Shown here one piece after another: positions 1 through 38,871 of a DNA stretch of 39,395 bases. Both the position numbers and the translations under genes were made by a program. Below the pieces are notes generated by a model. It had not been told where the DNA came from. It saw only the letters and a program-made list of their open reading frames with translations, and did no database searches. Source of the DNA: a virus; the IMG/VR virus record IMGVR_UViG_3300036770_000541, positions 1 to 39,395 of that record; one strand, given 5' to 3'. Each line of letters starts with the position of its first letter. Positions within the stretch are counted from its first letter, which is position 1.

Positions 1-110
1 TTATTGCGGAGCCAGTAAGCAAAGTCGTCCGCAGCACCTCGTACCTTTGGAGCTTCTAGGTACATCTGGGCCTCGTCTGCTGTCTCACATTTTAACAGTA
101 TCTCAATCAT
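1..110 (-). CDS. Small phage protein, N-terminal fragment cut by window edge
   Basis: Only the first 36 residues are present. They begin MIEILLKCETADEAQMYLEA and continue into a GAADDFAYWLRN segment that matches the intact 66-aa protein at 33197-33397 of the second copy. The start codon overlaps the end of the upstream gene by 8 nt, so it belongs to the leftward recombination operon. I do not recognise a function. In the full copy it sits directly upstream of the YqaJ-type exonuclease gene. Confidence 0.8.
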   Translation of the reverse strand, partial: MIEILLKCETADEAQMYLEAPKVRGAADDFAYWLRN

Positions 111-309
111 TTTGTTTCATCCCCCAGATTTGGATACAAGTAGACTCTAATCTTGCGTCTATCGGATTCAGTCGCAACAAGTCCTTACTTCCCTGCTTGT
201 AGGCTTGGATGACATCTGCGACCTCTGCGGACTGGTGGACAGGGGCTTCTACCCTGTGATAAATAAGACAGGACAGAATCCCCATTGTGAACCCCAAGAG
301 CCAGTTCAT
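103..309 (-). CDS. Small membrane-anchored phage protein
   Basis: A 68-aa protein with one hydrophobic N-terminal segment (about residues 3-17, WLLGFTMGILSCLIY) and a short soluble tail ending in LNPIDARLESTCIQIWGMKQ. The homologue at 33390-33611 (73 aa) has a different middle but an almost identical last 23 residues, so selection acts on the tail. The predicted topology is a single N-terminal membrane anchor. It lies between the annealing-protein genes and the gene cut at the window edge. Function unknown; holin-like activity seems unlikely because the gene is in the early leftward operon. Confidence 0.75.
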   Translation of the reverse strand: MNWLLGFTMGILSCLIYHRVEAPVHQSAEVADVIQAYKQGSKDLLRLNPIDARLESTCIQIWGMKQND

Positions 310-346
310 AAGAACATCAACCCAAAGAACAAGAGCATCAGAACGG

Positions 347-589
347 CTACCGTCCCAAGTCCGTCAAGCGTTCCAGCCTGTGCCTCCTTGCGTCTAAGGC
401 TTTGGCATACTCCATATCTAAAGCTGTCATAGCCCACTCTTGTAGATGAAACGCCTCTTTTTGGATTTCTATACATCGCGTTATTACCTCCTCAAGTTCT
501 TTTGTTTCCAACATAGATGAAGCGGTTAGGTCTCTAAGATCCGCACATAAGGCGGTAATCCTGACTACGTTTGCTCCGTGGTTTGACAT
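347..589 (-). CDS. Helical protein next to annealing protein
   Basis: An 80-aa, probably all-helical protein (ELEEVITRCIEIQKEAFHLQ) that overlaps the end of the annealing-protein gene by 25 nt, which suggests translational coupling. The copy at 33649-33894 is 81 aa and differs at few positions. No cysteine cluster, signal peptide or known enzyme motif is visible. Its tight coupling makes a partner or regulator of the recombinase plausible, but that is inference from context only. Confidence 0.8.
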   Translation of the reverse strand: MSNHGANVVRITALCADLRDLTASSMLETKELEEVITRCIEIQKEAFHLQEWAMTALDMEYAKALDARRHRLERLTDLGR

Positions 590-1080
590 ACCTGTTCCTT
601 TCGCTTTGTAAAAGTTTCCTGCATTACTTTCCTATCTGCTTCACTCATAGCCCCCCAGACGGTCTTAAGATCCGCAAGTGAGCCACAAGCATTTACAGCC
701 TTGGTCATCTTTTCTACTCGTGGGTCAGGCTTATTTTCTTGCTGGTAGATAGCGTTTTGTACTTCGTCCGCACTAGCAATCTCAGAACCTCCGTAACCCG
801 CAAAAGCCAATGCTCTTCCTACTGCTGAACTCTCGCAGTTTTCTAGGGCTGAGGTCTGGTTGATCTGGCTGGAGGAACGTCTTTCTTCTGCGTGGCCTGT
901 AGCAATAGTGACGCTTGCAGAATCGCAAATCTCTGCGCGGACTACAACGCGGTCTTCATCCATATCGATAATGTCCGTGTGGATCTGCCAGTCAGGGTGG
1001 TCTACGCGGAACTGCTTAATCCTGTAAGCGACCGTTAGGTACTCTTTACCTCGAATATTTACCTTGCCTGTATTAGTCAT
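565..1080 (-). CDS. Single-strand annealing protein (ERF/Rad52-type, DUF1071-like)
   Basis: A 171-aa protein with the layout of phage single-strand annealing or ssDNA-binding recombinases. It has an N-terminal GKEYLTVAYRIKQFR segment, a central beta region, then ENCESSAVGRALAFAGYG and EIASADEVQNAI (about residues 81-111), a motif I associate with ERF/DUF1071-like families. These proteins anneal ssDNA during phage recombination, usually together with an exonuclease; a YqaJ-type exonuclease is in the same operon at 32571-33200. The homologue at 33867-34379 is about two-thirds identical, and the last 30 residues are nearly invariant. The exact family is not certain. Confidence 0.75.
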   Translation of the reverse strand: MTNTGKVNIRGKEYLTVAYRIKQFRVDHPDWQIHTDIIDMDEDRVVVRAEICDSASVTIATGHAEERRSSSQINQTSALENCESSAVGRALAFAGYGGSEIASADEVQNAIYQQENKPDPRVEKMTKAVNACGSLADLKTVWGAMSEADRKVMQETFTKRKEQVCQTTEQT

Positions 1081-1243
1081 CTGATTCTCCCAGTTGGAAT
1101 GTAAGTGGTTCTTTGCTAAACATCTCTACACGTAACTCACCATCGCGGTGCTTGATAACAAGCGTGGTGTAGTGAGTATGCAAGCTGTCTTTCTTGTGTT
1201 GTATTAGGGATAACCCCTCTGTATGGTGTACGGTCAAGTCCAT
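1073..1243 (-). CDS. Small conserved protein upstream of annealing protein
   Basis: A 56-aa ORF starting MDLTVHHTEGLSLIQHKKDS whose stop overlaps the start of the annealing-protein gene by 8 nt. The second copy (34372-34542) has the same length. Most nucleotide differences between the two are synonymous, which is strong evidence of a real gene. It has a short beta-like pattern (HYTTLVIKHRDGELRVEMFS) and no recognised domain. Probably co-translated with the recombinase; function unknown. Confidence 0.8.
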   Translation of the reverse strand: MDLTVHHTEGLSLIQHKKDSLHTHYTTLVIKHRDGELRVEMFSKEPLTFQLGESDD

Positions 1244-1246
1244 TTG

Positions 1247-1402
1247 CTAAGCCTCCATGCTTTTGAAATACTGTATTTCATCGGTAAGTTCGTAGCCCTG
1301 TAAAACATATACAGGCGAAAACAAACCAGCATCCTCTTCAACCTTTTGCTGCCTAAGCAGGTCTTCTTGGTGAGCTTGCCCAGCGGCATCATAGTCCTCC
1401 AT
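1247..1402 (-). CDS. Small acidic protein, first gene of leftward operon (copy 1)
   Basis: A 51-aa ORF (MEDYDAAGQAHQEDLLRQQ, then a Gly-Leu-Phe-Ser-Pro turn and a C-terminal EIQYFKSMEA). A good Shine-Dalgarno (AAGGAGA) lies 6 nt before the ATG. The copy at 34543-34704 has 53 aa and shares most residues. Three nucleotides separate its stop from the next start. Function unknown. It is the promoter-proximal gene in copy 1; in copy 2 another gene (34716-35030) is inserted ahead of it. Confidence 0.8.
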   Translation of the reverse strand: MEDYDAAGQAHQEDLLRQQKVEEDAGLFSPVYVLQGYELTDEIQYFKSMEA

Positions 1403-1460
1403 CTAGTTCTCCTTAAAAAATAACCACAACTACATTTTGCCCGCCTGTGCAAGATATTGT

Positions 1461-1553
1461 TATTAGGACAAACCCTTAGTTGTTTATATGCAACAGTTTA
1501 ACAATCATGCTTAAGTCTTTGTTTTGTAAACATATCGTGATAAGGTAACGCCT
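1461..1553. promoter_or_regulatory. Divergent control region between leftward and rightward operons
   Basis: This 93-nt non-coding segment differs from its counterpart (35091-35183) at only five positions, much less than the flanking genes. It contains a hairpin GTTGT-TTATAT-GCAAC (1479-1494), whose stem changes from T-G to C-G in copy 2 and so stays paired. It also has a 13-bp inverted repeat TGTTT-TGT-AAACA (1520-1532) identical in both copies, a plausible operator, and AAGG as a ribosome-binding site before the ATG at 1554. I cannot place -35/-10 boxes confidently for either direction. Confidence 0.65.
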
Positions 1554-1895
1554 ATGAAACTGGTGACAAGATCTACTTGCATCGCAGTTTACGAGCTGCT
1601 GATCCAGTTGCCACCTGTAAAAGCGTGGAAACTTCCACCCAGTCAAGACCTGATCTTCTCTGTCAGGCATCTCCCAGATGTTTATGGTTTGTACGAGCCA
1701 GAGCCGCACAAGATAACCATTAGTTCAGCCAAACACGCGCACCTAGATACTTGTATCAGGACGATAGCGCACGAAATGATCCACCTCCACCTTTACATCC
1801 GCAAAGACCCAGACTGGGACAAACATACAAAAGCCTTCTTGGACTGCGCGGCTAAGGTCTCAAACACATTGGGTTTCGACCCCAAGGAGCTTTAA
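1554..1895 (+). CDS. SprT-like zinc metallopeptidase-type protein
   Basis: A 113-aa protein with the zinc-metallopeptidase signature HEMIH at residues 73-77, followed by LHLYIRKDPDWDKHTKAF, a spacing seen in phage SprT-like proteins. Preceding segments (VYGLYEP, KITISSAKHAHLDTCIRTIAHE) also fit that fold. The function in phages is not established; SprT-family relatives in cells act on protein-DNA crosslinks. It is the first gene of the rightward operon, and its stop abuts the next ATG. The homologue at 35184-35525 keeps the HExxH motif. Activity is inferred, not shown. Confidence 0.7.
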   Translation: MKLVTRSTCIAVYELLIQLPPVKAWKLPPSQDLIFSVRHLPDVYGLYEPEPHKITISSAKHAHLDTCIRTIAHEMIHLHLYIRKDPDWDKHTKAFLDCAAKVSNTLGFDPKEL

Positions 1896-2840
1896 ATGGC
1901 AACACCAGCTTGTAGTGACGAAGAGTTTGTAAAACTATTTAGAGAACTGGGTTCTCCCCAGGCGATTGCTGAAACACTAGGCATTTCTGTCCGCAACGTC
2001 TTTGCGAGAAGAAATCGTCTTACACAGAAACACGGGATAGAGCTTCTTTCGTTCTCCAAACATTTGCGAATCACAAACGTAACGCATGAGCAGAAGATTT
2101 ATACCGAGATTAAAGACGGAATTGTTGTGGTCTTTTCGGATGCTCACTACTGGCCTGGGCCTCCAACGGTCGCTCACCAGGCTTTGCTGGCGGTCGTAAG
2201 CAACCTAAAACCCGCTATCGTAATTGCCAACGGGGACGTTTTTGACGGGGCCAGAGTCTCAAGACACGATCCTATCTACAAGCACGAAACACCCTCAGCC
2301 AAGGAAGAGGTAGAGGCTTGTGTAGAACGCATGACCGAGATAGAGGACGCTAGTAAGAACAGTACGCTTCTGTGGAACGTAGGCAACCACGATCAGAGGC
2401 TGTGGCGGTACATTCGTGTAAACGCCCCAGAGGCTTCTGGTATGCCGCACACAGACTTGTTTGACTACTTTGCCAGGTGGAAGCAGACCTACGCTGTAGA
2501 CATAAACGGCAACACGCTTATAAAACACAGATGGCACAACGGTATCCACGCCACCTACAATAATGCTTTGCGAGCTATGGGAGCGCACGTTGTCACAGGC
2601 CACCTACATCGTTTACAGATTACTGCGGTTGCTGGCTACGGACACCAAAGATTTTACGGAGTAGACACAGGTACGCTAGCAGATGTAGACGGGCGGCAGT
2701 TTGCCTACCTAGAACACAACCCAGTCATGTGGGCTTCTGGGTTTGCGGTGCTTACTTACCGCAACGGGGTACTGCTGCCCCCAGAGCTTGTGGAAGTGGT
2801 GGACGGTGAGGCATTTTTCAGGTCTTGCAAAATAGCGTGA
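1896..2840 (+). CDS. HTH-metallophosphoesterase fusion (calcineurin-like)
   Basis: A 314-aa two-part protein. Residues 1-50 look like a DNA-binding helix-turn-helix (QAIAETLGISVRNVFARRNRL). From residue 78 on it carries the metallophosphoesterase signature: D82-x-H84, GD at 113-114, GNHD at 163-166, a later histidine pair in KHRWHNGIH, and GHLHR at 235-239. The family hydrolyses phosphodiesters with two metal ions and includes Mre11/SbcD nucleases, phosphatases and cyclic-nucleotide enzymes. The HTH suggests action on DNA. It starts directly after the HExxH gene and is paired with it again in copy 2 (35525-36466). The substrate cannot be assigned. Confidence 0.85.
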   Translation: MATPACSDEEFVKLFRELGSPQAIAETLGISVRNVFARRNRLTQKHGIELLSFSKHLRITNVTHEQKIYTEIKDGIVVVFSDAHYWPGPPTVAHQALLAVVSNLKPAIVIANGDVFDGARVSRHDPIYKHETPSAKEEVEACVERMTEIEDASKNSTLLWNVGNHDQRLWRYIRVNAPEASGMPHTDLFDYFARWKQTYAVDINGNTLIKHRWHNGIHATYNNALRAMGAHVVTGHLHRLQITAVAGYGHQRFYGVDTGTLADVDGRQFAYLEHNPVMWASGFAVLTYRNGVLLPPELVEVVDGEAFFRSCKIA

Positions 2841-2864
2841 ACTTTTCCTGATTTGTGGTATCCT
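2837..2864 (+). promoter_or_regulatory. Extended -10 promoter overlapping a stop codon
   Basis: GTGAAC (2837-2842), 16-bp spacer, then TG-G-TATCCT with the hexamer at 2859-2864. The first element contains the TGA stop of the metallophosphoesterase. The same arrangement, with shared TGAACTTTT and TGTGGTATC blocks, occurs at 36763-36790 in copy 2 even though the preceding gene there is unrelated. That conservation is the main evidence. Transcription would start near 2871 and enter the structured non-coding region. Confidence 0.6.
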
Positions 2865-2865
2865 A

Positions 2866-3285
2866 TAAGGGCTTAGGAAAAAGACTAGGCTGCGTGTGGA
2901 AGCGCAAACTGCAAATCACATTTAAGAACCTCTACGCATGGGTTTCGGTTTTTTAGGCGATTTTTGTGATTTCAGCCTCTTCCACCGCAACCTGGAACCC
3001 AGTCGTAGGGGTTTTTCTATTTCTAGGCTCGTCCGCGACACGATAAGTTGGTGGCCTGAATCGGCTGAATCGCAATAAAGACACCTAGCGTTTACACCCG
3101 CGTTTAGGTCTCAGCCTGTCAGAGAGGGACTGAGGTAGTCTACAGGGCCAGGGGTGACTATGACCAACCTGTAGATGAATGAATCTCTGCGTTCTGCGGT
3201 ATCTAGTCTGTAGCTTGTAGTCTTAGTTGCAGGTGGGATGGGAAGATAGCATGGGCTATCACCCTTGGGGGAGTTATGTCTAAAA
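2866..3285 (+). ncRNA. Structured non-coding region, candidate ncRNA or origin
   Basis: No ORF of note lies in this stretch. It holds a series of strong stems in order. (a) A nested stem: GTGGAAG 2896-2902 with CTTCCAC 2979-2985 (flanked by GCG/CGC), and inside it AAATCACA 2913-2920 with TGTGATTT 2965-2972. (b) ACCTA-GCG 3083-3090 with CGC 3099-3101 and TAGGT 3105-3109. (c) TCTACAGG 3139-3146 with CCTGTAGA 3168-3175. (d) GATAGC-ATGG-GCTATC 3245-3260. A near-direct repeat of TGAATCG lies at 3054-3072. No T-run follows the last hairpin. It does not match an RNA family I know. It could be a long leader, a free RNA or the copy-1 replication origin. Confidence 0.45.
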
Positions 3286-3338
3286 GATACAACACTAGTG
3301 AAAACCCTGATACAACACGATAAAAAAAGTGATACTGT
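3286..3338 (+). promoter_or_regulatory. Repeated operator-like boxes and promoter for the Mom-like gene
   Basis: GATACAACAC occurs at 3286-3295 and 3309-3318, and a third partial box GATAC begins at 3331. The spacings of 23 and 22 nt equal about two helical turns. The last box overlaps a TG-A-TACTGT extended -10 (hexamer 3333-3338) placed 6 nt before the ATG at 3345, and no Shine-Dalgarno is visible, so a leaderless transcript is possible. Spaced repeats like this usually bind a regulator; the protein is unknown. Confidence 0.45.
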
Positions 3339-3344
3339 TAATAC

Positions 3345-3956
3345 ATGACTGTGTTACCAATAAAACCAGAAGAGGCGTACCCTTGGATTCTGCAAAAGCA
3401 CTATGCCAAGCGGGTTCCGCAGATAAGCTATGCGTTTGGTCTTTATGAAGACAAGCAGCTAAAAGGTGTTGTGACCTACGGTATGCCAGCTAGTCCGTTT
3501 ATTTGTATGCATCTTTGCGGGCCTGAATACCGAGATCATGTCATAGAGTTAAACAGACTTTGTTTACAAGACAACAAAAAAAATGAGGCCAGCTTTCTTG
3601 TGGCTAACAGCCTAAAACTCCTACCCAAACCTAAAATTGTGGTTTCTTACGCAGACATGGGTATAGGTCACATTGGGTATGTTTATCAGGCTTGTAATTT
3701 TTTATTTACTGGTTTGTCAGCAGACAGAGTAGACAAAATTAGTTCTGACAATAAACACTCTCGTCACGCTAAAGATGCGACCCAAAAAATTCGTAGAAGC
3801 AGAAAATATAGGTATGTTTACTTTGTTGGATCAAAGCAAGACAAAAAGAAATTTGTTAACCTTTTGCGGTACGAAGTTTTGCCGTACCCAAAGGGAGATA
3901 ACAAAAAATACGATGCTGGTGGACAAGTTATGACCCAACCATTGTTATTTGCATAG
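3345..3956 (+). CDS. Mom-like DNA adenine modification protein
   Basis: A 203-aa protein resembling the phage family annotated as Mom-type adenine modification proteins. Conserved-looking segments are PWILQKHYAKRVPQISYAFGL, VVTYG, ELNRLCL, ASFLVANSLKLLP, VVSYADMGIGHIGYVYQACNF and a C-terminal KYRYVYFVGSK. In phage Mu, Mom has a GNAT-like fold and converts adenine to a carbamoylmethyl form that resists restriction. This copy lacks the 25-30 residue insertion I recall after VDK in some relatives, so it is slightly short. It lies in the replication cassette of copy 1 only. The family call comes from motif memory; activity is not shown. Confidence 0.7.
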   Translation: MTVLPIKPEEAYPWILQKHYAKRVPQISYAFGLYEDKQLKGVVTYGMPASPFICMHLCGPEYRDHVIELNRLCLQDNKKNEASFLVANSLKLLPKPKIVVSYADMGIGHIGYVYQACNFLFTGLSADRVDKISSDNKHSRHAKDATQKIRRSRKYRYVYFVGSKQDKKKFVNLLRYEVLPYPKGDNKKYDAGGQVMTQPLLFA

Positions 3957-3965
3957 GAGAGAGAA

Positions 3966-4358
3966 ATGCAAGACTTTGAGATGTTCTGGAAGGAGTACCC
4001 AAAAAAGGTAGCAAAGGGCGATGCGCGGAAAGCCTGGATACAGACAGAAGCGATAAGGCCCGACCTAGAAACAGTCCTAAAAGCAGTTAAGACCGCAAAG
4101 AAGCAAGAGGACTGGCGTAAGGACTCTGGTAAGTTTGTACCCTACCCTGCCACATGGTTGCGGGCAGAGAGGTGGGAGGACGAGTATGAGCTTGACATAG
4201 AGGACGCTGTAGAAGTCAACGGTCAAGTTATGAACTGGTGGGAGTCCGCAACAGGGATAGAAAAAAAGGGTGCGGAGGTCGGGTTAACCCCAGAGCAGTT
4301 TGCGTCCTGGCCTGAGTTTAAGGCTACCGTCCTGCGGCAACTTATGAGGGCGGCCTAA
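3966..4358 (+). CDS. Replication-protein C-terminal-type domain, stand-alone
   Basis: A 130-aa protein with the pattern FEMFWKEYPKKVAKGDARKAW, then KFVPYPATWLRAERWEDE (about residues 55-72). This module is usually found at the C-terminus of phage replication initiators and DnaT/DnaD-like proteins. Here it stands alone with no N-terminal winged-helix part. It has a good AGGAG site 8 nt before the ATG and ends one base before the next gene. It occupies the same slot as the DUF1376 and P-like genes of copy 2, which supports a replication role. Confidence 0.65.
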   Translation: MQDFEMFWKEYPKKVAKGDARKAWIQTEAIRPDLETVLKAVKTAKKQEDWRKDSGKFVPYPATWLRAERWEDEYELDIEDAVEVNGQVMNWWESATGIEKKGAEVGLTPEQFASWPEFKATVLRQLMRAA

Positions 4359-4718
4359 ATGAAGCGTGATACGGAAGTAGAAGCAGTCATCACTAGAAGT
4401 ATGTCTGCGGCTGAGATTATGGACCTCACAGGCCATAACAAGGGCAGTCTCTACGCAATACTGGATAGGCTTATAAGTGAAAACAAGATCAAGAAAACGG
4501 GCCTCAGATACGCCCCAACAGGATATTCTGACCAGCCGATTGTTAACGGAAGAGACGAGTTCTTCTGTGCCGACCCCTTCAATATGTCTGGACTGCGAAA
4601 CAATCGGAATCTTCAATCTCAACTGCGGAAAATGCAGACTAAGACTCATCAGACAGGAATCATGCAAGGTCTTGCGGTTGCAAGTGAAAGAAACAGCAGA
4701 AAGGTACGGTGGGCTTGA
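4359..4718 (+). CDS. Winged-helix/HTH protein (copy 1)
   Basis: A 119-aa protein. Residues 1-55 form a helix-turn-helix pattern (MSAAEIMDLTGHNKGSLYAILDRLISENKIKKTGLRYAP). In this part every nucleotide difference from the copy at 37945-38304 is synonymous, so this frame is clearly coding. The C-terminal half is basic and less typical, and another open frame overlaps it. Its TGA overlaps the ATG of the DUF3310 gene (TGATG), indicating coupled translation. Probably a DNA-binding regulator of early genes; target unknown. Confidence 0.8.
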   Translation: MKRDTEVEAVITRSMSAAEIMDLTGHNKGSLYAILDRLISENKIKKTGLRYAPTGYSDQPIVNGRDEFFCADPFNMSGLRNNRNLQSQLRKMQTKTHQTGIMQGLAVASERNSRKVRWA

Positions 4719-4794
4719 TGGAGACTGGAAAACCAACCATTGTGGCTGTGAAAGAGTCTGCCAACGCAGGGCAAATAGGCGGCAGTCATTATAA
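4477..4794 (+). CDS. Possible overprinted cysteine-rich protein (copy 1)
   Basis: An ORF in a different frame, overlapping the winged-helix gene and the start of the DUF3310 gene. It can start at GTG 4477, TTG 4540 or GTG 4567. Its C-terminal part has eight cysteines in zinc-finger-like spacing (CLDC, CGKC, C, CGC, C) around CKVLRLQVKETAERYGGLDG. All eight persist in copy 2 (38063-38380), and in the most diverged stretch the changes here are mostly conservative (Leu/Ile swaps) while the other frame changes more. The pattern looks like small phage zinc proteins I have seen, but the substitution evidence is mixed. Confidence 0.4.
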   Translation: MKTRSRKRASDTPQQDILTSRLLTEETSSSVPTPSICLDCETIGIFNLNCGKCRLRLIRQESCKVLRLQVKETAERYGGLDGDWKTNHCGCERVCQRRANRRQSL

Positions 4795-4972
4795 GAAGTT
4801 GACCATCCAGCCCTGGGACTACATCCTGGCTAACAGTATTGGCTACTGCGAGGGGTCAGCGATAAAGTATTTATCTAGGTGGAAGGACAAAGGCGGTATA
4901 CAAGATTTATATAAAGCAAAGCACTTTATAGACAAGCTAATAGAGTATGAGGAGAGCAAGAATGAGCATTAG
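4718..4972 (+). CDS. DUF3310 family protein (copy 1)
   Basis: An 84-aa protein containing the DUF3310 core IGGSHYKKLTIQPWDYILAN, then CEGSAIKYLSRWKDKGGIQDLYKAKHFIDKLIE (about residues 18-76). This small domain is common in phages, sometimes linked to nucleotide metabolism, but its biochemical role is not settled. I chose ATG 4718 because it overlaps the preceding stop; an upstream GTG at 4709 is in frame. Differences from copy 2 in the overlap with the cysteine-rich frame are synonymous here, so this frame is the constrained one there. Confidence 0.85.
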   Translation: METGKPTIVAVKESANAGQIGGSHYKKLTIQPWDYILANSIGYCEGSAIKYLSRWKDKGGIQDLYKAKHFIDKLIEYEESKNEH

Positions 4973-5486
4973 CGCAATGAAGCAAGCATTGGAAGTCATT
5001 GAGGCTGCAATTGAGGCTGGTGACTGGAAGGTGGATGGGGCCTGTGATCCAGACATGGCAATACATTCACTACGCCAAGCCATCGCAGAGGCAGAGAAGC
5101 AAGAGCCTGCCTTTTATGTGATACCAGCAACAGACAGATTCGGAGAGGGATATGAGCAAACCTACTGGGAAGACCCCGCTGGTTTTCCTGTTTATACCAG
5201 ACCTGTTTACGCCAGCGACATATCGCAAAAACCTGTCGATGAAACTGCAAAAGATCGACATAAGACTGATTGCAAAAAAGATTTTGACTTACTTTTTGAG
5301 GCAAATAGCGCAGATATAGAGGCGTTGCAAGACGCTCAATTTACCCTTGAAGCGATTAAAAGCGCAGATCCCGGAACGCATGACGAAATAATTGATGCGT
5401 CATTGCATTTAATAAAACTTGCATTAAGCAATTCTGTTTTTGGGCCAATAGAAAGAATTGCAGAAAGATATGGGGTTGAAATATGA
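4962..5486 (+). CDS. MKQAL-type accessory protein, long form
   Basis: A 174-aa protein starting MSISAMKQALEVIEAAIEAG, followed by SLRQAIAEAEKQEPAFYVI, a module I know from many environmental phage proteins of unknown function. The C-terminal half (from about residue 85) is acidic and helical (SADIEALQDAQFTLEAIKSA). A GGAG site precedes the ATG, which overlaps the previous stop. The copy at 38548-38871 lacks about 66 central residues, yet the rest from about 5250 onward is identical at DNA level. The next gene starts with the same MSISxMKQAL motif, so the two are N-terminal paralogues. Confidence 0.75.
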   Translation: MSISAMKQALEVIEAAIEAGDWKVDGACDPDMAIHSLRQAIAEAEKQEPAFYVIPATDRFGEGYEQTYWEDPAGFPVYTRPVYASDISQKPVDETAKDRHKTDCKKDFDLLFEANSADIEALQDAQFTLEAIKSADPGTHDEIIDASLHLIKLALSNSVFGPIERIAERYGVEI

Positions 5487-6049
5487 GCATTTCAATAATG
5501 AAGCAGGCATTAGATGTCTTGCGAGGAATGCACCCAGAACATGGCGGCAATGCTTTTACGAGGGCCGCTGACGAACTGCGGCGAGCAATTGATTTACAAG
5601 AGAAGCGACATATTTGCCCAGACTGGGACTTTATGGAAATTACGGTAAACGATGAAGAATTTAATGCCTGCTGTTGTTTCCCAAAAGAGCCAAGACCTAG
5701 TCTTTGGTTAGCAACCGCCCACGATGGGCGAGTGAAATATACAACCGATAGCGGTCGTGCATCAGATTGGAAAGAATCAGGCTCGTACAGGATGGTTCAA
5801 GACTATTACACTGAACCACTGCATGACTTTGGCAATGTTACGGATGATGCATTGATAGAAGAAGTCCGTAGTCGTGGCTTTACTATTCGTGATGCTCAGA
5901 TTTCACCAAAGCGTGAATGGGTTTGGCTGACGGACACGCAGATCGACGAAATCATGCGTCCGCTTACGCAGAATCAACCCTACTCGTGGCGGGTATTTGC
6001 TCGGGCCATCGAAGCCAAACTAAAGGAAAAGAATGTACCGCAACCCTAA
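5483..6049 (+). CDS. MKQAL-type accessory protein, full length
   Basis: A 188-aa protein starting MSISIMKQALDVLRGMHPEH with the arginine-rich helix AADELRRAIDLQEKRHICPDW. It has a mid-region ACCCFPKEPRP and a C-terminal section DTQIDEIMRPLTQN...WRVFARAIEAKLKEKN, which resembles C-termini of other phage hypothetical proteins. Its start overlaps the previous stop (ATGA). The copy at 38868-39395 is nearly identical for over 400 nt, then carries a 28-codon in-frame insertion after QISPK before rejoining at REWV. Function unknown. Confidence 0.75.
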   Translation: MSISIMKQALDVLRGMHPEHGGNAFTRAADELRRAIDLQEKRHICPDWDFMEITVNDEEFNACCCFPKEPRPSLWLATAHDGRVKYTTDSGRASDWKESGSYRMVQDYYTEPLHDFGNVTDDALIEEVRSRGFTIRDAQISPKREWVWLTDTQIDEIMRPLTQNQPYSWRVFARAIEAKLKEKNVPQP

Positions 6050-33200: not shown

Positions 33201-33397
33201 AGCATTTCTCCTACTCTGTCATAGAATTCCTTGCTAACCAATTCCAGCAAGGCGTGTTCTTCTTCCGTGTGGTCTCCGTGTTTAATCTTGTTTCGGAGCC
33301 AGTACGCAAAGTCGTCCGCAGCACCCCGCAATCTTGGTGCTTCCATGTACATCGCGGCTTCTGCTGGACTGTCACATTTTAACTTTATTTCAATCAT
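33197..33397 (-). CDS. Small phage protein upstream of exonuclease
   Basis: A 66-aa protein (MIEIKLKCDSPAEAAMYMEA, GAADDFAYWLRN, then KHGDHTEEEHALLELVSKEFYDRV). The homologous fragment 1-110 at the other end shows the same start. Overlaps the exonuclease gene and the membrane protein gene by a few nt. Function unknown; gene order in the operon is conserved between copies. Confidence 0.8.
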   Translation of the reverse strand: MIEIKLKCDSPAEAAMYMEAPRLRGAADDFAYWLRNKIKHGDHTEEEHALLELVSKEFYDRVGEML

Positions 33398-33611
33398 TTT
33401 GTTTCATGCCCCATATTTGGATGCAAGTAGATTCAAGGCGAGCATCTATCGGGTTGAGCTTCAGAATGTCTTGTGACCCTGCCTTGTAAGCCTCAATGAT
33501 TTCTGCGGTCTTAAAGCCACTTTCTCGTTTAGCCTCCTCCCGAATGTCCACAATCCTGTTGTAGCCCGCGGCAAGCAGGATGCCCATGACAAAACCCATA
33601 AGCCAGTTCAT
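33390..33611 (-). CDS. Small membrane-anchored phage protein (copy 2)
   Basis: A 73-aa homologue of 103-309. N-terminal membrane segment WLMGFVMGILLAAGYNRIV, then a different middle and the conserved LNPIDARLESTCIQIWGMKQ tail. The anchor region and middle have diverged while the tail has not, which points to the tail as the functional part. Confidence 0.75.
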   Translation of the reverse strand: MNWLMGFVMGILLAAGYNRIVDIREEAKRESGFKTAEIIEAYKAGSQDILKLNPIDARLESTCIQIWGMKQND

Positions 33612-33648
33612 AAGAACATCAACCCAAGGAAAAGAATCATAAGAACGG

Positions 33649-33894
33649 CTACTGTTCCAAGTCCGTCAAGCGTTGCAGCTTTTGCTTCCTCGCGTCTAAG
33701 GCTTTGGCATACTCCATGTCTAAAGCAGACATCGCCCACTCCTGTAGATGAAACGCCTCTTTTTGGATTTCGATACATCGCGTTATTACCTCCTCAAGTT
33801 CTTTTGTTTCTAAAAGGGATGCTGCTGTTAGGTCTCGTAAAGCCGCACATAGCGCGGTGATGCGTACTACATTGGCTCCGTGGTTGTTTTGCAT
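33649..33894 (-). CDS. Helical protein next to annealing protein (copy 2)
   Basis: An 81-aa homologue of 347-589; most differences fall near the N-terminus and the last ten residues. It overlaps the annealing-protein gene by 28 nt. No recognised motif. The conserved core ELEEVITRCIEIQKEAFHLQ is identical in both copies. Confidence 0.8.
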   Translation of the reverse strand: MQNNHGANVVRITALCAALRDLTAASLLETKELEEVITRCIEIQKEAFHLQEWAMSALDMEYAKALDARKQKLQRLTDLEQ

Positions 33895-34379
33895 ACCTGT
33901 TCCTTTCGCTTTGTAAAAGTTTCTTGCATTACTTTCCTATCTGCTTCACTCATGGCCCCCCAGACGACTTTAAGATCTTCTAATGAACCACAAGCGTTTA
34001 CTGCTGCGGTCATCTTCTCTACACGGGGATTGGACTGGCTCGATATAGCTGCAATCACTTCGTCCGCAGAAGCAATCTGCATCTCCTGAGAACCGTAGTC
34101 TAGGAAGCCTAGTGCGCGGCCTACAGCACTCGTCTCCGCAATCTCAACATAGGATGCCTGGTGCATCTTAGAGGCGTTACGGGTCTCAAAGGCGTGGCCT
34201 GTAGCCTGGTGGACACCCGCAGAGTCACAGATGTCACAGCGCATAACTACATGGTCTTCATCTAACCTGATGACCTCTGTGTGTATCTGCCAGTCTGGGT
34301 GTTCACCACGAAACTGATGTATCCGATAGGCTACGGTCGAATACTCTTTGCCGTGAATGTTTACTTTGCCGTTAGTCAT
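33867..34379 (-). CDS. Single-strand annealing protein (copy 2)
   Basis: A 170-aa homologue of 565-1080. It retains GKEYSTVAYRIHQFR, AETSAVGRALGFLDYG and QIASADEVIAAI; the region between residues 40 and 85 is diverged, and the C-terminal VWGAMSEADRKVMQETFTKR is invariant. In this copy the whole operon with the exonuclease is visible, confirming the exonuclease-annealing pair. Confidence 0.75.
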   Translation of the reverse strand: MTNGKVNIHGKEYSTVAYRIHQFRGEHPDWQIHTEVIRLDEDHVVMRCDICDSAGVHQATGHAFETRNASKMHQASYVEIAETSAVGRALGFLDYGSQEMQIASADEVIAAISSQSNPRVEKMTAAVNACGSLEDLKVVWGAMSEADRKVMQETFTKRKEQVCKTTTEPM

Positions 34380-34542
34380 CTGATTCTCCTAGTTGAAATG
34401 TGAGTGGTTCTTTGCTAAACATCTCTACCCTTAATTCGCCATCTTTATGCTTGATGACGAGCGTGGTGTAGTGAGTTTGAGTGCTGTCTTTCTTATGTTG
34501 AATTAGGGATAACCCCTCTGCGTAATGTACGGTTAAGTCCAT
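34372..34542 (-). CDS. Small conserved protein upstream of annealing protein (copy 2)
   Basis: A 56-aa homologue of 1073-1243 (MDLTVHYAEGLSLIQHKKDS). Nucleotide differences are mainly synonymous. It overlaps the annealing-protein start by 8 nt. Confidence 0.8.
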   Translation of the reverse strand: MDLTVHYAEGLSLIQHKKDSTQTHYTTLVIKHKDGELRVEMFSKEPLTFQLGESDD

Positions 34543-34704
34543 TTAGAAAGCCTCCATGCTTTTAAAATAGAATATTTCAGCGGCAAGTCGCTCGCCCTGT
34601 AGAACATATAAAGGCGAAAACAAACCAGCATCCTCTTCAGCCTCCTGCTGCCTAAGCAGGTCTTCTTGGTGAGCTTGCCCAGCGGCATCGTCATAGTCCT
34701 CCAT
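34543..34704 (-). CDS. Small acidic protein of leftward operon (copy 2)
   Basis: A 53-aa homologue of 1247-1402 (MEDYDDAAGQAHQEDLLRQQ). It directly abuts the next gene. One Asp is added and the C-terminal EIFYFKSMEAF differs slightly. GGAGG lies 7-11 nt upstream of the ATG. Confidence 0.8.
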   Translation of the reverse strand: MEDYDDAAGQAHQEDLLRQQEAEEDAGLFSPLYVLQGERLAAEIFYFKSMEAF

Positions 34705-34715
34705 AAAACCCTCCG

Positions 34716-35030
34716 TTAATTTTTGTTGGGTAGGTTGCCAAGAGCTTTGTCAATTGCCGCCCTTGCTTTGTCGTTCCACTTCCACAAATCGTCATCTGCC
34801 CAGGCCATAGATTGAGGAAATGTCATAAGAGCATCTAGCAGATCCGGAGCCGCAGAAATTAAACGAGCATTGGCCATAGCCTCTTCTTGTGAGATGGTTT
34901 TTCTGTATGGCATATTTGCAATCGTTGTTGAGTGAACCCCTGTTTTGCGAGTTGTAATACTAAATGGGTTTGTTTTCCAGTACTTAACATTATCGTTAAA
35001 CCGCCACGGGCCTGTTGTGTGTTTATACAT
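34716..35030 (-). CDS. Small phage protein absent from copy 1
   Basis: A 104-aa protein from ATG 35030 (MYKHTTGPWRFNDNVKYWKT, IANMPYRKTISQEEAMANARLISAAPDLLDAL). The AxARLISAAPDLLxAL block is common in phage and prophage proteins of unknown function. GGAG lies 8 nt before this ATG; an ATG two codons upstream is too close to it. Copy 1 has only about 60 nt of unrelated sequence at this spot, so the gene has been gained or lost between the copies. Confidence 0.75.
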   Translation of the reverse strand: MYKHTTGPWRFNDNVKYWKTNPFSITTRKTGVHSTTIANMPYRKTISQEEAMANARLISAAPDLLDALMTFPQSMAWADDDLWKWNDKARAAIDKALGNLPNKN

Positions 35031-35090
35031 TTGCATCTCTCCTTTTTTGTTAACCACAAGCACATCTTCTGCGTTTGTGCGCGAAATTTA

Positions 35091-35183
35091 TATTAGGAAA
35101 AACCCTTAGTTGCTTAAATGCAACAGTTTAACAATCATGCTTAAGTCTTTGTTTTGTAAACATATCGTGATAAGGTAACACTT
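35091..35183. promoter_or_regulatory. Divergent control region (copy 2)
   Basis: Counterpart of 1461-1553: same length, five differences. Hairpin GTTGC-TTAAAT-GCAAC here has a perfect stem, and the TGTTT-TGT-AAACA inverted repeat (35150-35162) is unchanged. AAGG precedes the ATG at 35184. Confidence 0.65.
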
Positions 35184-35525
35184 ATGAAACTGGTGACAAG
35201 ATCTACTTGCATCGCAGTTTACGAGCTGCTTGTCCAGTTGCCCCCTATAAAAGCGTGGAGACTCCCACCCAGTCAAGAAATAATTTTTGTAGTCAGGCAT
35301 CTCCAAGATGTCTATGGGTTGTACGAGCCAGACTCTCACAAAATAACCATTTCTTCAGCCAAACACGCCCATTTGGGTACTGTAGTACGAACAATGGCTC
35401 ACGAGATGATCCACCTCCACCTTTATCTCCGCAAAGATCCCGACTGGGATAAGCACACCAAGGTCTTCTTGGATGCTGCGGCAAAAGTTTCGCACACATT
35501 AGGGTTTGACCCGAAGGAGTTGTAA
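35184..35525 (+). CDS. SprT-like zinc metallopeptidase-type protein (copy 2)
   Basis: A 113-aa homologue of 1554-1895. HEMIH is retained at residues 73-77 and the flanking LHLYLRKDPDWDKH is nearly identical. The first 50 nt are identical to copy 1. Stop and next start overlap (TAATG). Confidence 0.7.
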   Translation: MKLVTRSTCIAVYELLVQLPPIKAWRLPPSQEIIFVVRHLQDVYGLYEPDSHKITISSAKHAHLGTVVRTMAHEMIHLHLYLRKDPDWDKHTKVFLDAAAKVSHTLGFDPKEL

Positions 35526-36466
35526 TGCCCGCACCAACTTGCACAGACGAAGAATTTATAGAGTTGTTCAAAAGGCTAGGTAGCCCGCAAAAGATTTGCG
35601 AGCACCTTGGGGTAACAGTCAGAAATGTCTATGACCGCAGGAACAGAATTGAAAAGCGGTACGGTATTAACCTGCTTTCTTTCAATGCCAAACAGGTCTC
35701 CATGACCAATGTTGTCCACGAGCAAAAGGCTTATGTGGAGCTTGCGAACGGAATTATTGTGGTTTTTAGCGATGCTCATTACTGGCCTGGGCCAGCTACC
35801 GTAGCCCACAGAGCACTATTAGAAGTCCTCAAAAACCTGCCTGTAGATGTTGTAGTTGCAAATGGCGATGTGTTTGATGGCGCAAGGGTCTCAAGGCATG
35901 ACGCACTCTACCGACACGAAACGCCCTCACCTAAAGAAGAGGTTGAGGCTTGCCAGCTAAGAATGGGAGAGATCGAGAACGCGGCTAAGAACGCAAAGAA
36001 GATCTGGACTTATGGCAATCACGACACGAGGTTATGGCGGTATATCAGGACAAATGCGCCAGAAGTCTCTGGTATGCCAAACACAGACCTCTATGACTTC
36101 TTTCCTGGCTGGCACACCTGTTATGCAATAGATGTCAACGGGAATACTGTAATTAAACACAGGTGGCACAACGGAATTCATAGCACCTATAACAATGCTT
36201 TGAAATCGGGCGTTAACTTCTGCACAGGCCACTTGCACAGGCTACAAGTAGCTGCGTGGGGAGACTACACGGGAAGGCGATACGGTGTAGACACAGGGAC
36301 GCTTGCGGAACCCGATGGGCCACAGTTTATGTACCTAGAACACAATCCAGTCCCGTGGGCTTCTGGGTTTGCGGTACTAACCTACCGAAATGGCGTACTC
36401 CTGCCCCCAGAGCTTTGCGAGGTGGTAAACGGAGAGGCATTTTTTAGGTCTTGCAAGATCGCCTAG
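35525..36466 (+). CDS. HTH-metallophosphoesterase fusion (copy 2)
   Basis: A 313-aa homologue of 1896-2840. HTH part (QKICEHLGVTVRNVYDRRNRI) and all metallophosphoesterase motifs are retained: SDAHYW, NGDVFDG, YGNHD, KHRWHNGIH and GHLHR. The HTH is more diverged than the catalytic core. In this copy the promoter that overlaps the stop codon in copy 1 is instead downstream of an extra small gene. Confidence 0.85.
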   Translation: MPAPTCTDEEFIELFKRLGSPQKICEHLGVTVRNVYDRRNRIEKRYGINLLSFNAKQVSMTNVVHEQKAYVELANGIIVVFSDAHYWPGPATVAHRALLEVLKNLPVDVVVANGDVFDGARVSRHDALYRHETPSPKEEVEACQLRMGEIENAAKNAKKIWTYGNHDTRLWRYIRTNAPEVSGMPNTDLYDFFPGWHTCYAIDVNGNTVIKHRWHNGIHSTYNNALKSGVNFCTGHLHRLQVAAWGDYTGRRYGVDTGTLAEPDGPQFMYLEHNPVPWASGFAVLTYRNGVLLPPELCEVVNGEAFFRSCKIA

Positions 36467-36489
36467 CAGGGAGAAAATTCCTCGTCTAT

Positions 36490-36520
36490 TTTTTCACGCT
36501 TTAGCGTTACCCGTGAAAAA
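36490..36520. other. AT-rich hairpin after metallophosphoesterase (copy 2)
   Basis: TTTTTCACG (36490-36498) and CGTGAAAAA (36512-36520) form a perfect 9-bp stem around a 13-nt loop. No T-run follows on either strand, so it is not a standard terminator. It may protect mRNA ends or be a protein-binding site. Confidence 0.45.
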
Positions 36521-36562
36521 GGGGGGATTAGTCCGTAGTAAAATCTCCTTTTGGAGGTGTAT

Positions 36563-36766
36563 ATGCATAAAGAAAACTACAGAGCTTTTTGTAAGTGGGC
36601 CAGAGAAAAAAAGTATCGGCTTACAACAGACGCAGAGAAATACTTTGTTAGCACCCATACCCAGTCTGCGTGGGATGCTTGGAACGGTGCGCTTATGTGT
36701 AAACACGCAGATAAATGGAATGATGAAGCAAAGCGTTTAAGCACGATGCTTAAGCAAATTTGTTGA
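36563..36766 (+). CDS. Small protein before replication promoter (copy 2 only)
   Basis: A 67-aa protein (MHKENYRAFCKWAREKKYRLTTDAEKYFVSTHTQSAWDAWNGALMC). GGAGG (36553-36557) lies 5 nt before the ATG and is buried in a CTCC-TTTT-GGAG hairpin (36545-36556), hinting at translational control. The SAWDAWNGALMC segment resembles small phage proteins of unknown function. Its stop lies inside the promoter at 36763. Confidence 0.65.
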   Translation: MHKENYRAFCKWAREKKYRLTTDAEKYFVSTHTQSAWDAWNGALMCKHADKWNDEAKRLSTMLKQIC

Positions 36767-36790
36767 ACTTTTTTCTGTCTGTGGTATCTT
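36763..36790 (+). promoter_or_regulatory. Extended -10 promoter overlapping a stop codon (copy 2)
   Basis: TTGAAC (36763-36768), 16-bp spacer, TG-G-TATCTT (hexamer 36785-36790). It includes the TGA stop of the 67-aa gene. It corresponds to the promoter at 2837-2864; blocks TGAACTTTT and TGTGGTATC are shared. Confidence 0.65.
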
Positions 36791-36796
36791 AGTATC

Positions 36797-36914
36797 TGTG
36801 CCGTGAGAAGCACAAAGTGGAGGCAGTAGCCAGTTCCTTTCAGATCGGCCCGCTGCCAGTTTTATACGCAATGTAGGCCTCCCGCTGGATTCTCACCCCG
36901 TGCGGGCCGACCTC
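36797..36914 (+). promoter_or_regulatory. Structured 5' leader of DUF1376 gene
   Basis: TGTGC/GCACA forms a hairpin at the predicted 5' end (36797-36801 with 36810-36814). TCGGCCCGC (36845-36853) pairs perfectly with GCGGGCCGA (36902-36910). Competing pairings exist: GGAGGC (36819-36824) with GCCTCC (36877-36882), which crosses the long stem, and GGCAG (36822-36826) with CTGCC (36853-36857). The ribosome-binding site lies just after the long stem, so a regulated switch or pseudoknot is possible. Confidence 0.45.
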
Positions 36915-36927
36915 AAGGGAATTGGTT

Positions 36928-37650
36928 ATGTACTACTACACCTTCAACATTGGCGATTACGCCAGTCACACCCGAAATCTTGGACTGCTTGAAGATCTAG
37001 CCTACCGCAGGTTACTAGACGAATACTATCTTCACGAACGACCGTTCAACGCCTGTTCAACGACCGTTGCACGCCAGATAGGAATGGCAGAACATAAAGA
37101 CGCGGTTGAGTTTGTTTTGCAGACTTTTTTTGTCTTGCAAGACTGCGGGTGGACAAACAAGCGGGCAGAAAAAGAAATCGCGCATTTTCGATCTAAGTCT
37201 GAGTCGGCTTCTAGGGCTGGCAAAGCGTCTGCTGAACGAAGGCTCAACGACCGTTCAACGACCGTTCAACCAACCAATAACCATAAACCAATAACCAATA
37301 ACCATAAACCAATAAAAAAACTACTTGCGCCTGAAGGCGTGTCTTTAGAGGTATGGGACTCATTTCTTCAGCAAAGGCAAAAGACGCGGGCAGTAGTGAC
37401 CGAGACGGTTATAAAGACAATCCAGAAGGAAGCTGACCTTGCGGGCTGGTCTTTAGAGAACGCTCTTTCCGAGATTGTGGCTCGTGGCTGGAGAGGGTTT
37501 AAGGCTGAGTGGGTGAAAGACAAGCCGCAGGATAAACTGTTAACATTTGCGGAAAGAGACGAGCTTGCCAAACGAAAGAAATGGGAAGAGATGACAGGGA
37601 GAAAGTGGCCTGAACCTGGGCAGCCTGTAGAAAGGTTGATGATCCTATGA
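36928..37650 (+). CDS. DUF1376 replication protein (copy 2 only)
   Basis: A 240-aa protein from ATG 36928 with AAGGGA upstream. DUF1376 core MYYYTFNIGDYASHTRNLGLLEDLAYRRLLDEYYLHERPF (residues 1-40), a linker with repeated asparagine/proline units (PTNNHKPITNNHKPIKK, about 115-131), and a C-terminal helical domain (EVWDSFLQQRQKTRAVVTETVIKTIQKEADLAGWSLENALSEIVARGWRGFKAEWV) typical of these replication proteins. DUF1376 proteins serve as initiator-type proteins in phages. The coding DNA carries iteron-like repeats, a likely origin. Confidence 0.8.
   Translation: MYYYTFNIGDYASHTRNLGLLEDLAYRRLLDEYYLHERPFNACSTTVARQIGMAEHKDAVEFVLQTFFVLQDCGWTNKRAEKEIAHFRSKSESASRAGKASAERRLNDRSTTVQPTNNHKPITNNHKPIKKLLAPEGVSLEVWDSFLQQRQKTRAVVTETVIKTIQKEADLAGWSLENALSEIVARGWRGFKAEWVKDKPQDKLLTFAERDELAKRKKWEEMTGRKWPEPGQPVERLMIL
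37037..37315 (+). other. Candidate replication origin inside DUF1376 gene
   Basis: Repeats of AACGACCGTT occur at 37037, 37059, 37245 and 37256. Two adjacent 21-bp repeats start at 37274 and 37295 (CCAATAACCATAAA followed by CCAATAA), then poly-A. Iterons next to an AT-rich segment inside an initiator gene are the layout of the lambda origin in gene O. Origin function is inferred. Confidence 0.55.
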
Positions 37651-37955
37651 ACCTATCCGCAATAGATGCTCTGTGGAACAAGATGCTTGTGGTCTACGGT
37701 CACGAGTGGACTCGCAAGTTTGACGGTATGCCTCTGGATGAAGTAAAGGGTGCGTGGGCAGATGAGTTGCGCGGCTATTCTGTAGAGCAGATCAAATACG
37801 GCCTGAGTATGCTAGGCGAGAGGCCACCCAACCTGATCCAGTTCAAAGACCTGTGTAAGAAGGCTCCACAGTATTTTGACTCACCACAATTAACTTATAG
37901 ACCAACGCCAAGCGAGGAGAAGCTGGCTAAATTTAGGAGGGCTTATGAAGCGTGA
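37647..37955 (+). CDS. P-like helicase-loader candidate (copy 2 only)
   Basis: A 102-aa protein: IDALWNKMLVVYGHEWTRKFDGMPLDEVKGAWADELRGYSVEQIKYGLSMLGERPPNLIQFKDLCKKAP. This resembles the conserved part of lambda P and similar phage replication proteins that recruit the host DnaB helicase. It overlaps the DUF1376 gene by 4 nt and the winged-helix gene by 11 nt. It is short compared with lambda P, so partial function is possible. Confidence 0.65.
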   Translation: MNLSAIDALWNKMLVVYGHEWTRKFDGMPLDEVKGAWADELRGYSVEQIKYGLSMLGERPPNLIQFKDLCKKAPQYFDSPQLTYRPTPSEEKLAKFRRAYEA

Positions 37956-38304
37956 TACAGAAGTAGAAGCAGTCATCACTAGAAGTATGTCTGCTGCGGA
38001 AATAATGGATCTCACAGGCCATAACAAGGGAAGTCTCTACGCAATACTGGATAGGCTTATAAGTGAAAACAAGATCAAGAAAACGGGCCTCAGATACGCC
38101 CCAACAGGATATTCTGACCAGCCCATTGTTAACGGAAGAGACGAGTTCTTCTGTGCCGATCCCTTCAATATGTCTGGACTGCGAAACAATCGGAATCTTC
38201 AATCTCAATTGCGAAAAATGCAGACTAAGAATACTCGTTACGGAACCATGCAAGGTTTTGCGGTTGCAAGTGAAAGAAACAGTAGAAAGGTACGGTGGGC
38301 TTGA
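37945..38304 (+). CDS. Winged-helix/HTH protein (copy 2)
   Basis: A 119-aa homologue of 4359-4718. The HTH part is identical in protein sequence to copy 1, with only synonymous changes; five of six residues differ in one block (about 91-96). The stop overlaps the DUF3310 start as in copy 1. Confidence 0.8.
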   Translation: MKRDTEVEAVITRSMSAAEIMDLTGHNKGSLYAILDRLISENKIKKTGLRYAPTGYSDQPIVNGRDEFFCADPFNMSGLRNNRNLQSQLRKMQTKNTRYGTMQGFAVASERNSRKVRWA

Positions 38305-38380
38305 TGGAGACTGGAAAACCAACAATTGTGGCTGTGAAAGAGTCTGCCAACGCAGGGCAAATCGGGGGCAGTCACTATAA
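38063..38380 (+). CDS. Possible overprinted cysteine-rich protein (copy 2)
   Basis: Second copy of the out-of-frame ORF at 4477-4794. All eight cysteines and CKVLRLQVKET are kept. In the variable block it reads LRILVTEPC versus LRLIRQESC. See the copy-1 entry for start options and doubts. Confidence 0.4.
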   Translation: MKTRSRKRASDTPQQDILTSPLLTEETSSSVPIPSICLDCETIGIFNLNCEKCRLRILVTEPCKVLRLQVKETVERYGGLDGDWKTNNCGCERVCQRRANRGQSL

Positions 38381-38558
38381 GAAGTTGACCATCCAGCCCT
38401 GGGACTATATTCTTGCTAACAGTATCGGCTACTGCGAGGGTTCCGCAATAAAGTATCTAAGCAGGTGGCGGGACAAAGGCGGTATACAAGATTTATATAA
38501 AGCAAAGCACTTTATAGACAAGCTGATAGAGCATGAGGAGAGTAAAAATGAGCGTTAG
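38304..38558 (+). CDS. DUF3310 family protein (copy 2)
   Basis: An 84-aa homologue of 4718-4972; the IGGSHYKKLTIQPWDYILAN core is identical, with two or three changes elsewhere (K to R in SRWRDKGG, Y to H near the C-terminus, and the last residue). ATG 38304 overlaps the previous stop. Confidence 0.85.
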   Translation: METGKPTIVAVKESANAGQIGGSHYKKLTIQPWDYILANSIGYCEGSAIKYLSRWRDKGGIQDLYKAKHFIDKLIEHEESKNER

Positions 38559-38871
38559 CGCAATGAAGCAAGCATTGGAGGCGTTGGATGCTTACGCCAG
38601 CGACATAAGCCAAGAACGTGTCGATGAAACGGCAAAAGATCGACATAAGACTGATTGCAAAAAAGATTTTGACTTACTTTTTGAGGCAAATAGCGCAGAT
38701 ATAGAGGCGTTGCAAGACGCTCAATTTACCCTTGAAGCGATTAAAAGCGCAGATCCCGGAACGCATGACGAAATAATTGATGCGTCATTGCATTTAATAA
38801 AACTTGCATTAAGCAATTCTGTTTTTGGGCCAATAGAAAGAATTGCAGAAAGATATGGGGTTGAAATATGA
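38548..38871 (+). CDS. MKQAL-type accessory protein, short form
   Basis: A 107-aa protein starting MSVSAMKQALEALDAYASD. Compared with copy 1 (4962-5486) it lacks about 66 internal residues, with the junction near the ASDIS tract, but keeps the frame. From about 38636 on it is identical to copy 1 at DNA level. GGAG precedes the ATG, which overlaps the DUF3310 stop. Confidence 0.75.
   Translation: MSVSAMKQALEALDAYASDISQERVDETAKDRHKTDCKKDFDLLFEANSADIEALQDAQFTLEAIKSADPGTHDEIIDASLHLIKLALSNSVFGPIERIAERYGVEI

Follow-up and report, generated by a model that had tools for sequence, protein, structure and literature searches.

Short complementary RNA segments that control gene expression or specificity have been described in several mobile elements. 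In IncB/IncI plasmids a loop pairs with downstream sequence to form a pseudoknot next to the start of the replication gene repZ, and the CI RNA of phage P4 is analogous to the c4 RNA of phages P1 and P7. The c4 RNA decides heteroimmunity between P1 and P7 through short complementary segments (PMC12197685), and it appears among the phage RNAs listed in earlier comparative surveys (PMC2864571). The locus described here resembles c4 (RF01695) and P4 CI RNA in that it appears to specify a regulatory phage RNA whose short complementary segments may decide specificity between related phages, but it differs in that these strands, b and b', are interleaved with a terminator, in that the phages concerned are apparently not temperate, and in that action in trans is only hypothesised. 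With attenuators and riboswitches it shares predicted alternative folds, an output through a terminator or a masked ribosome-binding site, and a pseudoknotted upstream domain; unlike them, it has a hypervariable switch helix, four unlike types occupying one slot and a helix (P0) reaching beyond the terminator, and no known class matches it. One of the four types recalls the pseudoknot layout of IncB/IncI repZ near a replication gene start, although no antisense RNA has been identified at the locus, which is not a plasmid.

The window is an IMG/VR virus record of 39,395 nt. Upstream of its structured region is a metallophosphoesterase gene (1896-2840), and downstream of it are a Mom-family DNA-modification gene (3345-3956) and then replication-type genes. 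Nothing in the whole window reached the gathering score of any Rfam 15 model, and a relaxed search of 2830-3350 (E up to 5) gave only chance matches, to IBV_D-RNA and snoR24, which bears out the opinion of a first-pass annotation, made from the sequence alone, that the region belongs to no known RNA family. The c4 model RF01695 found no covariance-model match in the window; the feature that defines c4-type control, complementary segments within one predicted transcript that differ between related phages, is met by b:b'. No tRNA or tmRNA was found anywhere in the window. A self-cleaving ribozyme was considered and set aside, there being no Rfam ribozyme match. The region had also been described as free of genes, and there is indeed no open reading frame of at least 50 aa at 2841-3344, only a 15-codon frame, MSKRYNTSENPDTTR (3276-3323, plus strand), with a strong Shine-Dalgarno sequence, GGGGGAG, at 3267-3273; its translation has not been shown, and the ATG is kept in most of the relatives aligned for the second RNA module described below. 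The Mom-like gene that separates the RNA locus from the replication gene is absent from a relative with nearly the same RNA (L007), and apparently represents a recent insertion or loss.

The two ends of the window, 1-5911 and 33288-39296, match at 73-99% identity, the likeness rising toward the right, and represent one early region in two diverged forms. A true duplication seems less likely than an assembly that has run round a circular or terminally redundant genome of about 33 kb and continued into a second strain. The RNA locus is preceded by a promoter-like pair, GTGAAC-16-TATCCT (2837-2864, plus strand), with a predicted start at about 2871, and the same motif, TTGAAC-16-TATCTT, stands at 36763-36790 ahead of the second copy. 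A promoter conserved in both copies, as the first-pass annotation had it, is thus correct for the motif, but the second copy (36763-36928) carries a different type of RNA. A strict sigma-70 scan did not call the window promoter because it scores 8 of 12; among 93 related elements, however, a promoter-like pair of at least 8 of 12 lies just 5' of the element in 71%, compared with 17% in shuffles, and in most of them at one preferred distance.

The first of two RNA modules (2871-3028; all features are on the plus strand), which we call a type III switch RNA, is predicted to be a hairpin-loop pseudoknot, made by helices a:a' and b:b', interleaved with an intrinsic-terminator stem, c:c', together with the helix P0. 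From the 5' end the order is a hairpin with strand a in its loop, then b, c, a hairpin (d) whose loop contains b', and lastly a' and c'. P0 (GCUUAGGAA:UUUCUAGGC, 2871-2879:3020-3028) pairs the 5' end of the transcript with sequence just past the terminator and is present when 2866-3285 is folded freely to minimum energy. Hairpin P1a (CUUAG[GAAAAAGA]CUAGG, 2872-2889) uses the same 5' strand, so that only one of the two can form at once, and because the 3' strand of P0 lies beyond the terminator P0 can form only in transcripts that have passed that point. Hairpin P1b (UGCG[UGUGGAAG]CGCA, 2891-2906, with stem 2891-2894:2903-2906) presents strand a in its loop. The pseudoknot helix a:a' (GUGGAAG 2896-2902 with CUUCCAC 2979-2985) encloses b:b' (AAAUCACA 2913-2920 with UGUGAUUU 2965-2972), and hairpin d (2955-2958:2975-2978) holds b' in its loop. 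The terminator c:c', of 18 bp (2927-2936 and 2939-2946 with 2994-3001 and 3004-3013; U-tract 3012-3016), belongs to the minimum-energy fold and was partly recovered by a terminator scan. While a:a' and b:b' are nested, c lies inside b:b' and its partner c' outside, so the folds are interleaved.

Inspection of the sequence found the stems of the first-pass annotation where it had placed them, including the doubly nested pair a:a' and b:b'; what it had missed was the strongest stem, the 18-bp terminator, which crosses the nested pair and therefore implies either a pseudoknot or an alternative fold. Its view of the region as a unit needs correction, since there are two RNA modules and not a single RNA. 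Folding energy gave uneven support, with a z-score of -1.5 for 2866-3285 (9 of 100 shuffles folding as well) and -3.2 for 2870-3020 (1 of 200), and since such energies alone are no proof of structure, we looked for relatives.

Relatives were gathered through the phosphoesterase protein (80 contigs) and by sequence pattern. An exact search with a conserved type II pattern found 75 distinct elements on 91 viral contigs, and a conserved c-strand pattern gave 20 type III members including the window, once four chance matches had been removed; the type III pattern GCCTCTTCCACCGCAACC returned only chance matches beyond two contigs already known. What emerges is that in the closest relatives the slot after the phosphoesterase gene, behind a similar promoter, is occupied by four types of module 1 that are unlike in sequence and alike in layout. 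Copy 1 of the window is type III and copy 2 type I, while L004, L009, L011, L014 and L015 carry type II and L012 type IV; a single sample can hold different types (type I in L006, type III in L007). In copy 2 the type I element comprises P1 (36798-36801:36810-36813), a:a' (36803-36809:36890-36896), b:b' (36819-36824:36877-36882) and c:c' (36845-36853:36902-36910), and a further strand, UUCCUUU (36834-36840), pairs with the Shine-Dalgarno sequence AAGGGAA (36915-36921) of the DUF1376 gene. The same layout with different helices recurs in L006, L016, L021, L026, L085, L090, L102 and L103; in type I helices a, b and c are clear, and a hairpin d around b' is not. In types II-IV the c' strand ends in a U-tract, whereas in type I the next gene's Shine-Dalgarno sequence lies within it, and some type II (L140, L148, L218) and type III (L243, L249) elements have both the Shine-Dalgarno sequence inside c' and an AUG after the U-tract. 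The four types are linked by predicted layout and by location, without demonstrable sequence homology. A different leader RNA, GGCUAGG[hairpin]CGAAAAGCG..ACCUCC..GCCUGCC, one strand of which complements the Shine-Dalgarno region, was seen just upstream of DUF1376 or the next gene in L091, L100, L105, L107, L108 and L116, perhaps also L110 and L111; those scanned had no Rfam match.

The search patterns fix part of each element, so that conservation within them is not evidence; helix b:b', on which the main test was made, lies outside them. In 61 distinct type II elements b pairs with its own b' at a mean score of 23.9, against 12.3 when partners are permuted (maximum 14.3 in 10,000 permutations), and there are 56 distinct b:b' helices among 73 elements. 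The corresponding scores for type III are 21.6 and 12.0 (maximum 15.7 in 10,000 permutations), and its 20 members have 17 distinct helices. For a:a' the own-versus-other score is weak in type III (15.7 against 13.2) because the loops share a common core, and the claim rests on individual compensated changes: GUGGAAG:CUUCCAC, CGGAAG:CUUCCG, GUGAUGG:CCAUCAC, GUAGUAA:UUACUAC and GUAGCG:CGCUAC in type III, and UGAC:GUCA changed to UAGC:GCUA in type II element L020. Comparison of the window with L220 shows nearly every helix of module 1 changed in a compensated way: P1a, CUUAG:CUAGG in the window, becomes UCUGA[GAAAAAGA]UCAGG in the same place, P1b has the stem CACC:GGUG with CGGAAG as its loop strand a, b:b' is GCAAGGA:UCCUUGC, d is GAGCU:AGCUC, and the base of c is compensated as AGCCCUAUUACG:CGUAAUGGGGCU. 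As for P0, most type II elements carry CAUUUCCGAC just after the terminator, complementary to the 5' end GUCGGAAGUG. With one P0 pair common to most sequences the pooled own-versus-other score (18.4 against 17.2) is uninformative and only compensated variants count, namely ACUGGAAGUG:CAUUUCCAGU in L192 and L204, GUUGGAAGUG:CAUUUCCAAC in L179 and AGUAG:CUAUU in L020; in some members P0 is imperfect or absent. A lack of covariation would have refuted the first-pass proposal of a structured RNA. The alignments show it instead, strongly in both modules, and from these comparisons of sequence we regard the structured RNA, with its predicted helices and their covariation, as established.

Helix b:b' is also hypervariable. 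Among 17 close pairs of type II elements, defined by downstream identity of 93% or more across 600 nt or more, the mean difference is 44% in b and 42% in b', compared with 4.4% downstream, 9.9% upstream, 3.4% in c, 8.5% in P1 and 5.1% in c', that is, a divergence about tenfold that of the downstream DNA and about fourfold that of the upstream. The values for b and b' are somewhat too high, being edit distances between helices that differ in length, and b:b' is identical in 3 of the 17 pairs; c, although it lies between b and b', does not share their divergence. The type II elements L192 and L204 differ chiefly in b:b'. The pattern agrees with diversifying selection or with the swapping of alleles from a pool that is maintained, and a frozen structure with one racing helix is what is expected of specificity determinants. 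Neutral drift is the plain alternative, whereby any sequence would work in a simple helix, some pairs would reflect swaps of whole elements, and recombination with relaxed constraint would give the appearance of hypervariability. We hold this to be a minority possibility, given the contrast between b/b' and their flanks while c stays the same; the covariation, and hence the structure, stands either way.

Module 2 (module ii; about 3029-3275) is a separate, second pseudoknotted RNA adjoining module 1. Its predicted helices in the window are 3035-3038:3070-3073, 3054-3056:3063-3065, 3083-3087:3105-3109, 3110-3114:3130-3134 and 3139-3146:3168-3175, with a pseudoknot between CAGAGA (3120-3125) and UCUCUG (3184-3189). 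In an alignment of 14 sequences including the window, 98.6% of the cells of 31 pairs are paired, 20 of the 31 pairs change on both sides, and covariation is 0.535, against 0.19 when shuffled and at most 0.084 when slid. The pseudoknot takes the forms CAGCGA:UCGCUG and CUACGA:UCGUAG elsewhere, and the first helix is variable (GCGA, UCCG, UCCU, GAGG, GGCG, GACG), all compensated. Module ii is found behind types II, III and IV, and types II and III also precede other modules, from which we infer that modules are exchanged. One of these is the Rfam family Betaproteobacteria-1 (RF02932), which lies directly behind a type II or III module 1 in L020, L141, L147, L149, L170, L182, L253, L257 and L263. 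Its covariance model does not match module 2 of the window. Rfam lists Betaproteobacteria-1 as a lone sRNA gene, whereas here it is one interchangeable second module, and the locus gives this orphan family a genomic context. An unannotated copy (93 bits; L268, OM049504.1, 11856-11979) occurs alone in the gap behind the primase gene of the cultured Acidovorax phage AP1, the only cultured phage found with a related part.

Two further observations concern second modules. Downstream of the Betaproteobacteria-1 core, a variable word of 6-12 nt follows GGCUCCG and is repeated after a hairpin ending CACCA (L020, L141, L147, L160, L170, L248 and others; L268 3090-3155), the two copies matching when they belong to one element (they share a mean run of 8.7 nt, against 5.1 between elements) and differing between phages. 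Another second module, with 19 members, starts CUGCGCGAAACGCCAGC directly behind the type II terminator (L004, L009, L135, L153, L166 and others), and had no Rfam match in L004.

The distribution of the elements bears on the life style of their carriers. All type III (n=20) and module ii (n=14) members besides the window come from uncultured phages; the region had no match by DNA similarity among 50,697 annotated phages, and such searches with the relatives gave only short partial matches. A search of 84,980 bacterial and archaeal genomes for the exact patterns of type II and module ii gave nothing, which suggests that the carrier phages are virulent and not temperate.

In proposing how the locus works, we take the region to be a bipartite leader RNA transcribed from its own promoter in a phage early operon, in which module 1 changes conformation and so governs read-through or translation. 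We think this reading probable, though well short of certain while data on transcripts, structure probing and termination are lacking. Sequence comparison shows the helices and how they covary, the dual terminator or ribosome-binding-site platform and the exchange of modules; that the folds exclude one another, which way control runs and what P0 does are inferences. The pseudoknot of a:a' and b:b' could form during transcription before c' is made, and once c' exists c would pair with it instead to give an intrinsic terminator, or, in type I and some type II and III elements, to mask the ribosome-binding site of the next gene. It is because the same c' strand is either terminator or masked ribosome-binding site that we read the element as a switch. 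In read-through transcripts the 5' end would re-pair beyond the terminator as P0, opening the first hairpin and perhaps locking the open state, and the switch would thereby set how strongly module 2, and the replication genes that follow, are expressed. Given that order of synthesis, pseudoknot first and terminator second, anything occupying b or a would raise termination.

In 36 of 73 type II elements the gap between b and c is only 0-3 nt, too short to span an 18-bp stem, from which we infer, on geometric grounds alone, that b:b' and a full c:c' should not form together there; in elements with a longer linker, such as the window (about 6 nt), both folds might coexist. Constrained folding of the window as far as the U-tract gives -47.7 for the b:b' fold and -50.9 for the terminator, and -63.5 and -62.9 respectively when the P0 strand is included; the type II means over 70 elements are -46.0 and -47.5. 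These come from a nested model that cannot score pseudoknots. An attenuator would require its intrinsic terminator to compete with an alternative fold formed upstream; in the window the strands of the two interleave and, with that qualification and without read-through data, the folds are nearly iso-energetic. Bistability is not universal by the same modelled energies, since in L220 the terminator is favoured by about 15 kcal/mol (-57.5 against -42.3).

What would trip the switch is less clear. RNA made by a phage of the same type might do so, since it displays b' in a loop: the b' loop of a terminated RNA might pair in trans with b of a nascent transcript of the same type and force termination. 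The outcome would be negative feedback, or an immunity to superinfection whose specificity b:b' sets, much as in the heteroimmunity of P1 and P7, and the diversification of the helix would thereby be explained. This extends the switch reading and does not oppose it, and we offer it tentatively, as unlikely on present evidence. The hypervariable yet nearly always complementary b:b', the swapping of alleles and types at one locus among close relatives, which resembles loci under frequency-dependent selection, and the precedent of c4 (PMC12197685) are what commend it; yet there is no direct evidence of trans action, cis pairing should normally win, type I yields no terminated RNA, b:b' is the same in three of the 17 close pairs, and with no elements in the bacterial genomes searched there is no lysogen to be immune. 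The main rival for the trigger is a small molecule bound by conserved unpaired bases, tipping the balance between the pseudoknot and the terminator or ribosome-binding-site mask. A dual expression platform behind a pseudoknotted, sensor-like domain is what a riboswitch would have, and type III does contain conserved stretches, CGCAUGGGUUUCGGUU...CCGCGACCUG, although the first is fixed by the search pattern, and they are confined to type III and not shared between types. We find a ligand doubtful, since four types with almost no sequence in common are unlikely to share one, what lies downstream varies (DUF1376, GIY-YIG, Mom-like, second RNA modules) and points to no metabolite, an ordinary structural helix should not outpace its flanks in divergence, and no Rfam riboswitch matches.

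Two explanations would dispense with a switch altogether. The terminated module of 150 nt and module 2 could be stand-alone, protein-binding small RNAs (a decoy for a host factor, a polymerase-modifying or an assembly RNA), the terminator merely ending the transcript. An own promoter and terminator would suit this, as would the fact that modules can occur apart, Betaproteobacteria-1 being alone in AP1; we rate it somewhat lower than the ligand or trans-acting proposals, as it leaves unexplained the interleaving of terminator and pseudoknot, the position of P0 beyond the terminator and the presence, in some members, of the next gene's ribosome-binding site on c'. The first-pass annotation had also allowed for an origin, and an origin of replication or primer RNA locus would be natural beside replication genes. 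We found nothing to support it and think it very improbable: compensatory changes keep RNA-type pairing, the elements carry terminators or ribosome-binding sites and move between contexts, and direct repeats in the region are only short and two-copy.

The locus adds several undescribed and widespread phage RNA families, represented by 75 distinct type II, 20 type III and at least 14 module ii sequences. To our knowledge, virulent phages rarely have known immunity systems. Should self-recognition through b:b' operate, rare barcodes would escape, and barcodes would therefore diversify and be swapped as modules; it is at least conceivable, though we would not rank it as likely, that in virulent freshwater phages the barcode helix lets the RNA of one phage shut off transcripts with the same barcode, a heteroimmunity without lysogeny. 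If the helix does mediate recognition between transcripts, competition among virulent phages by means of RNA could be put to a direct test.
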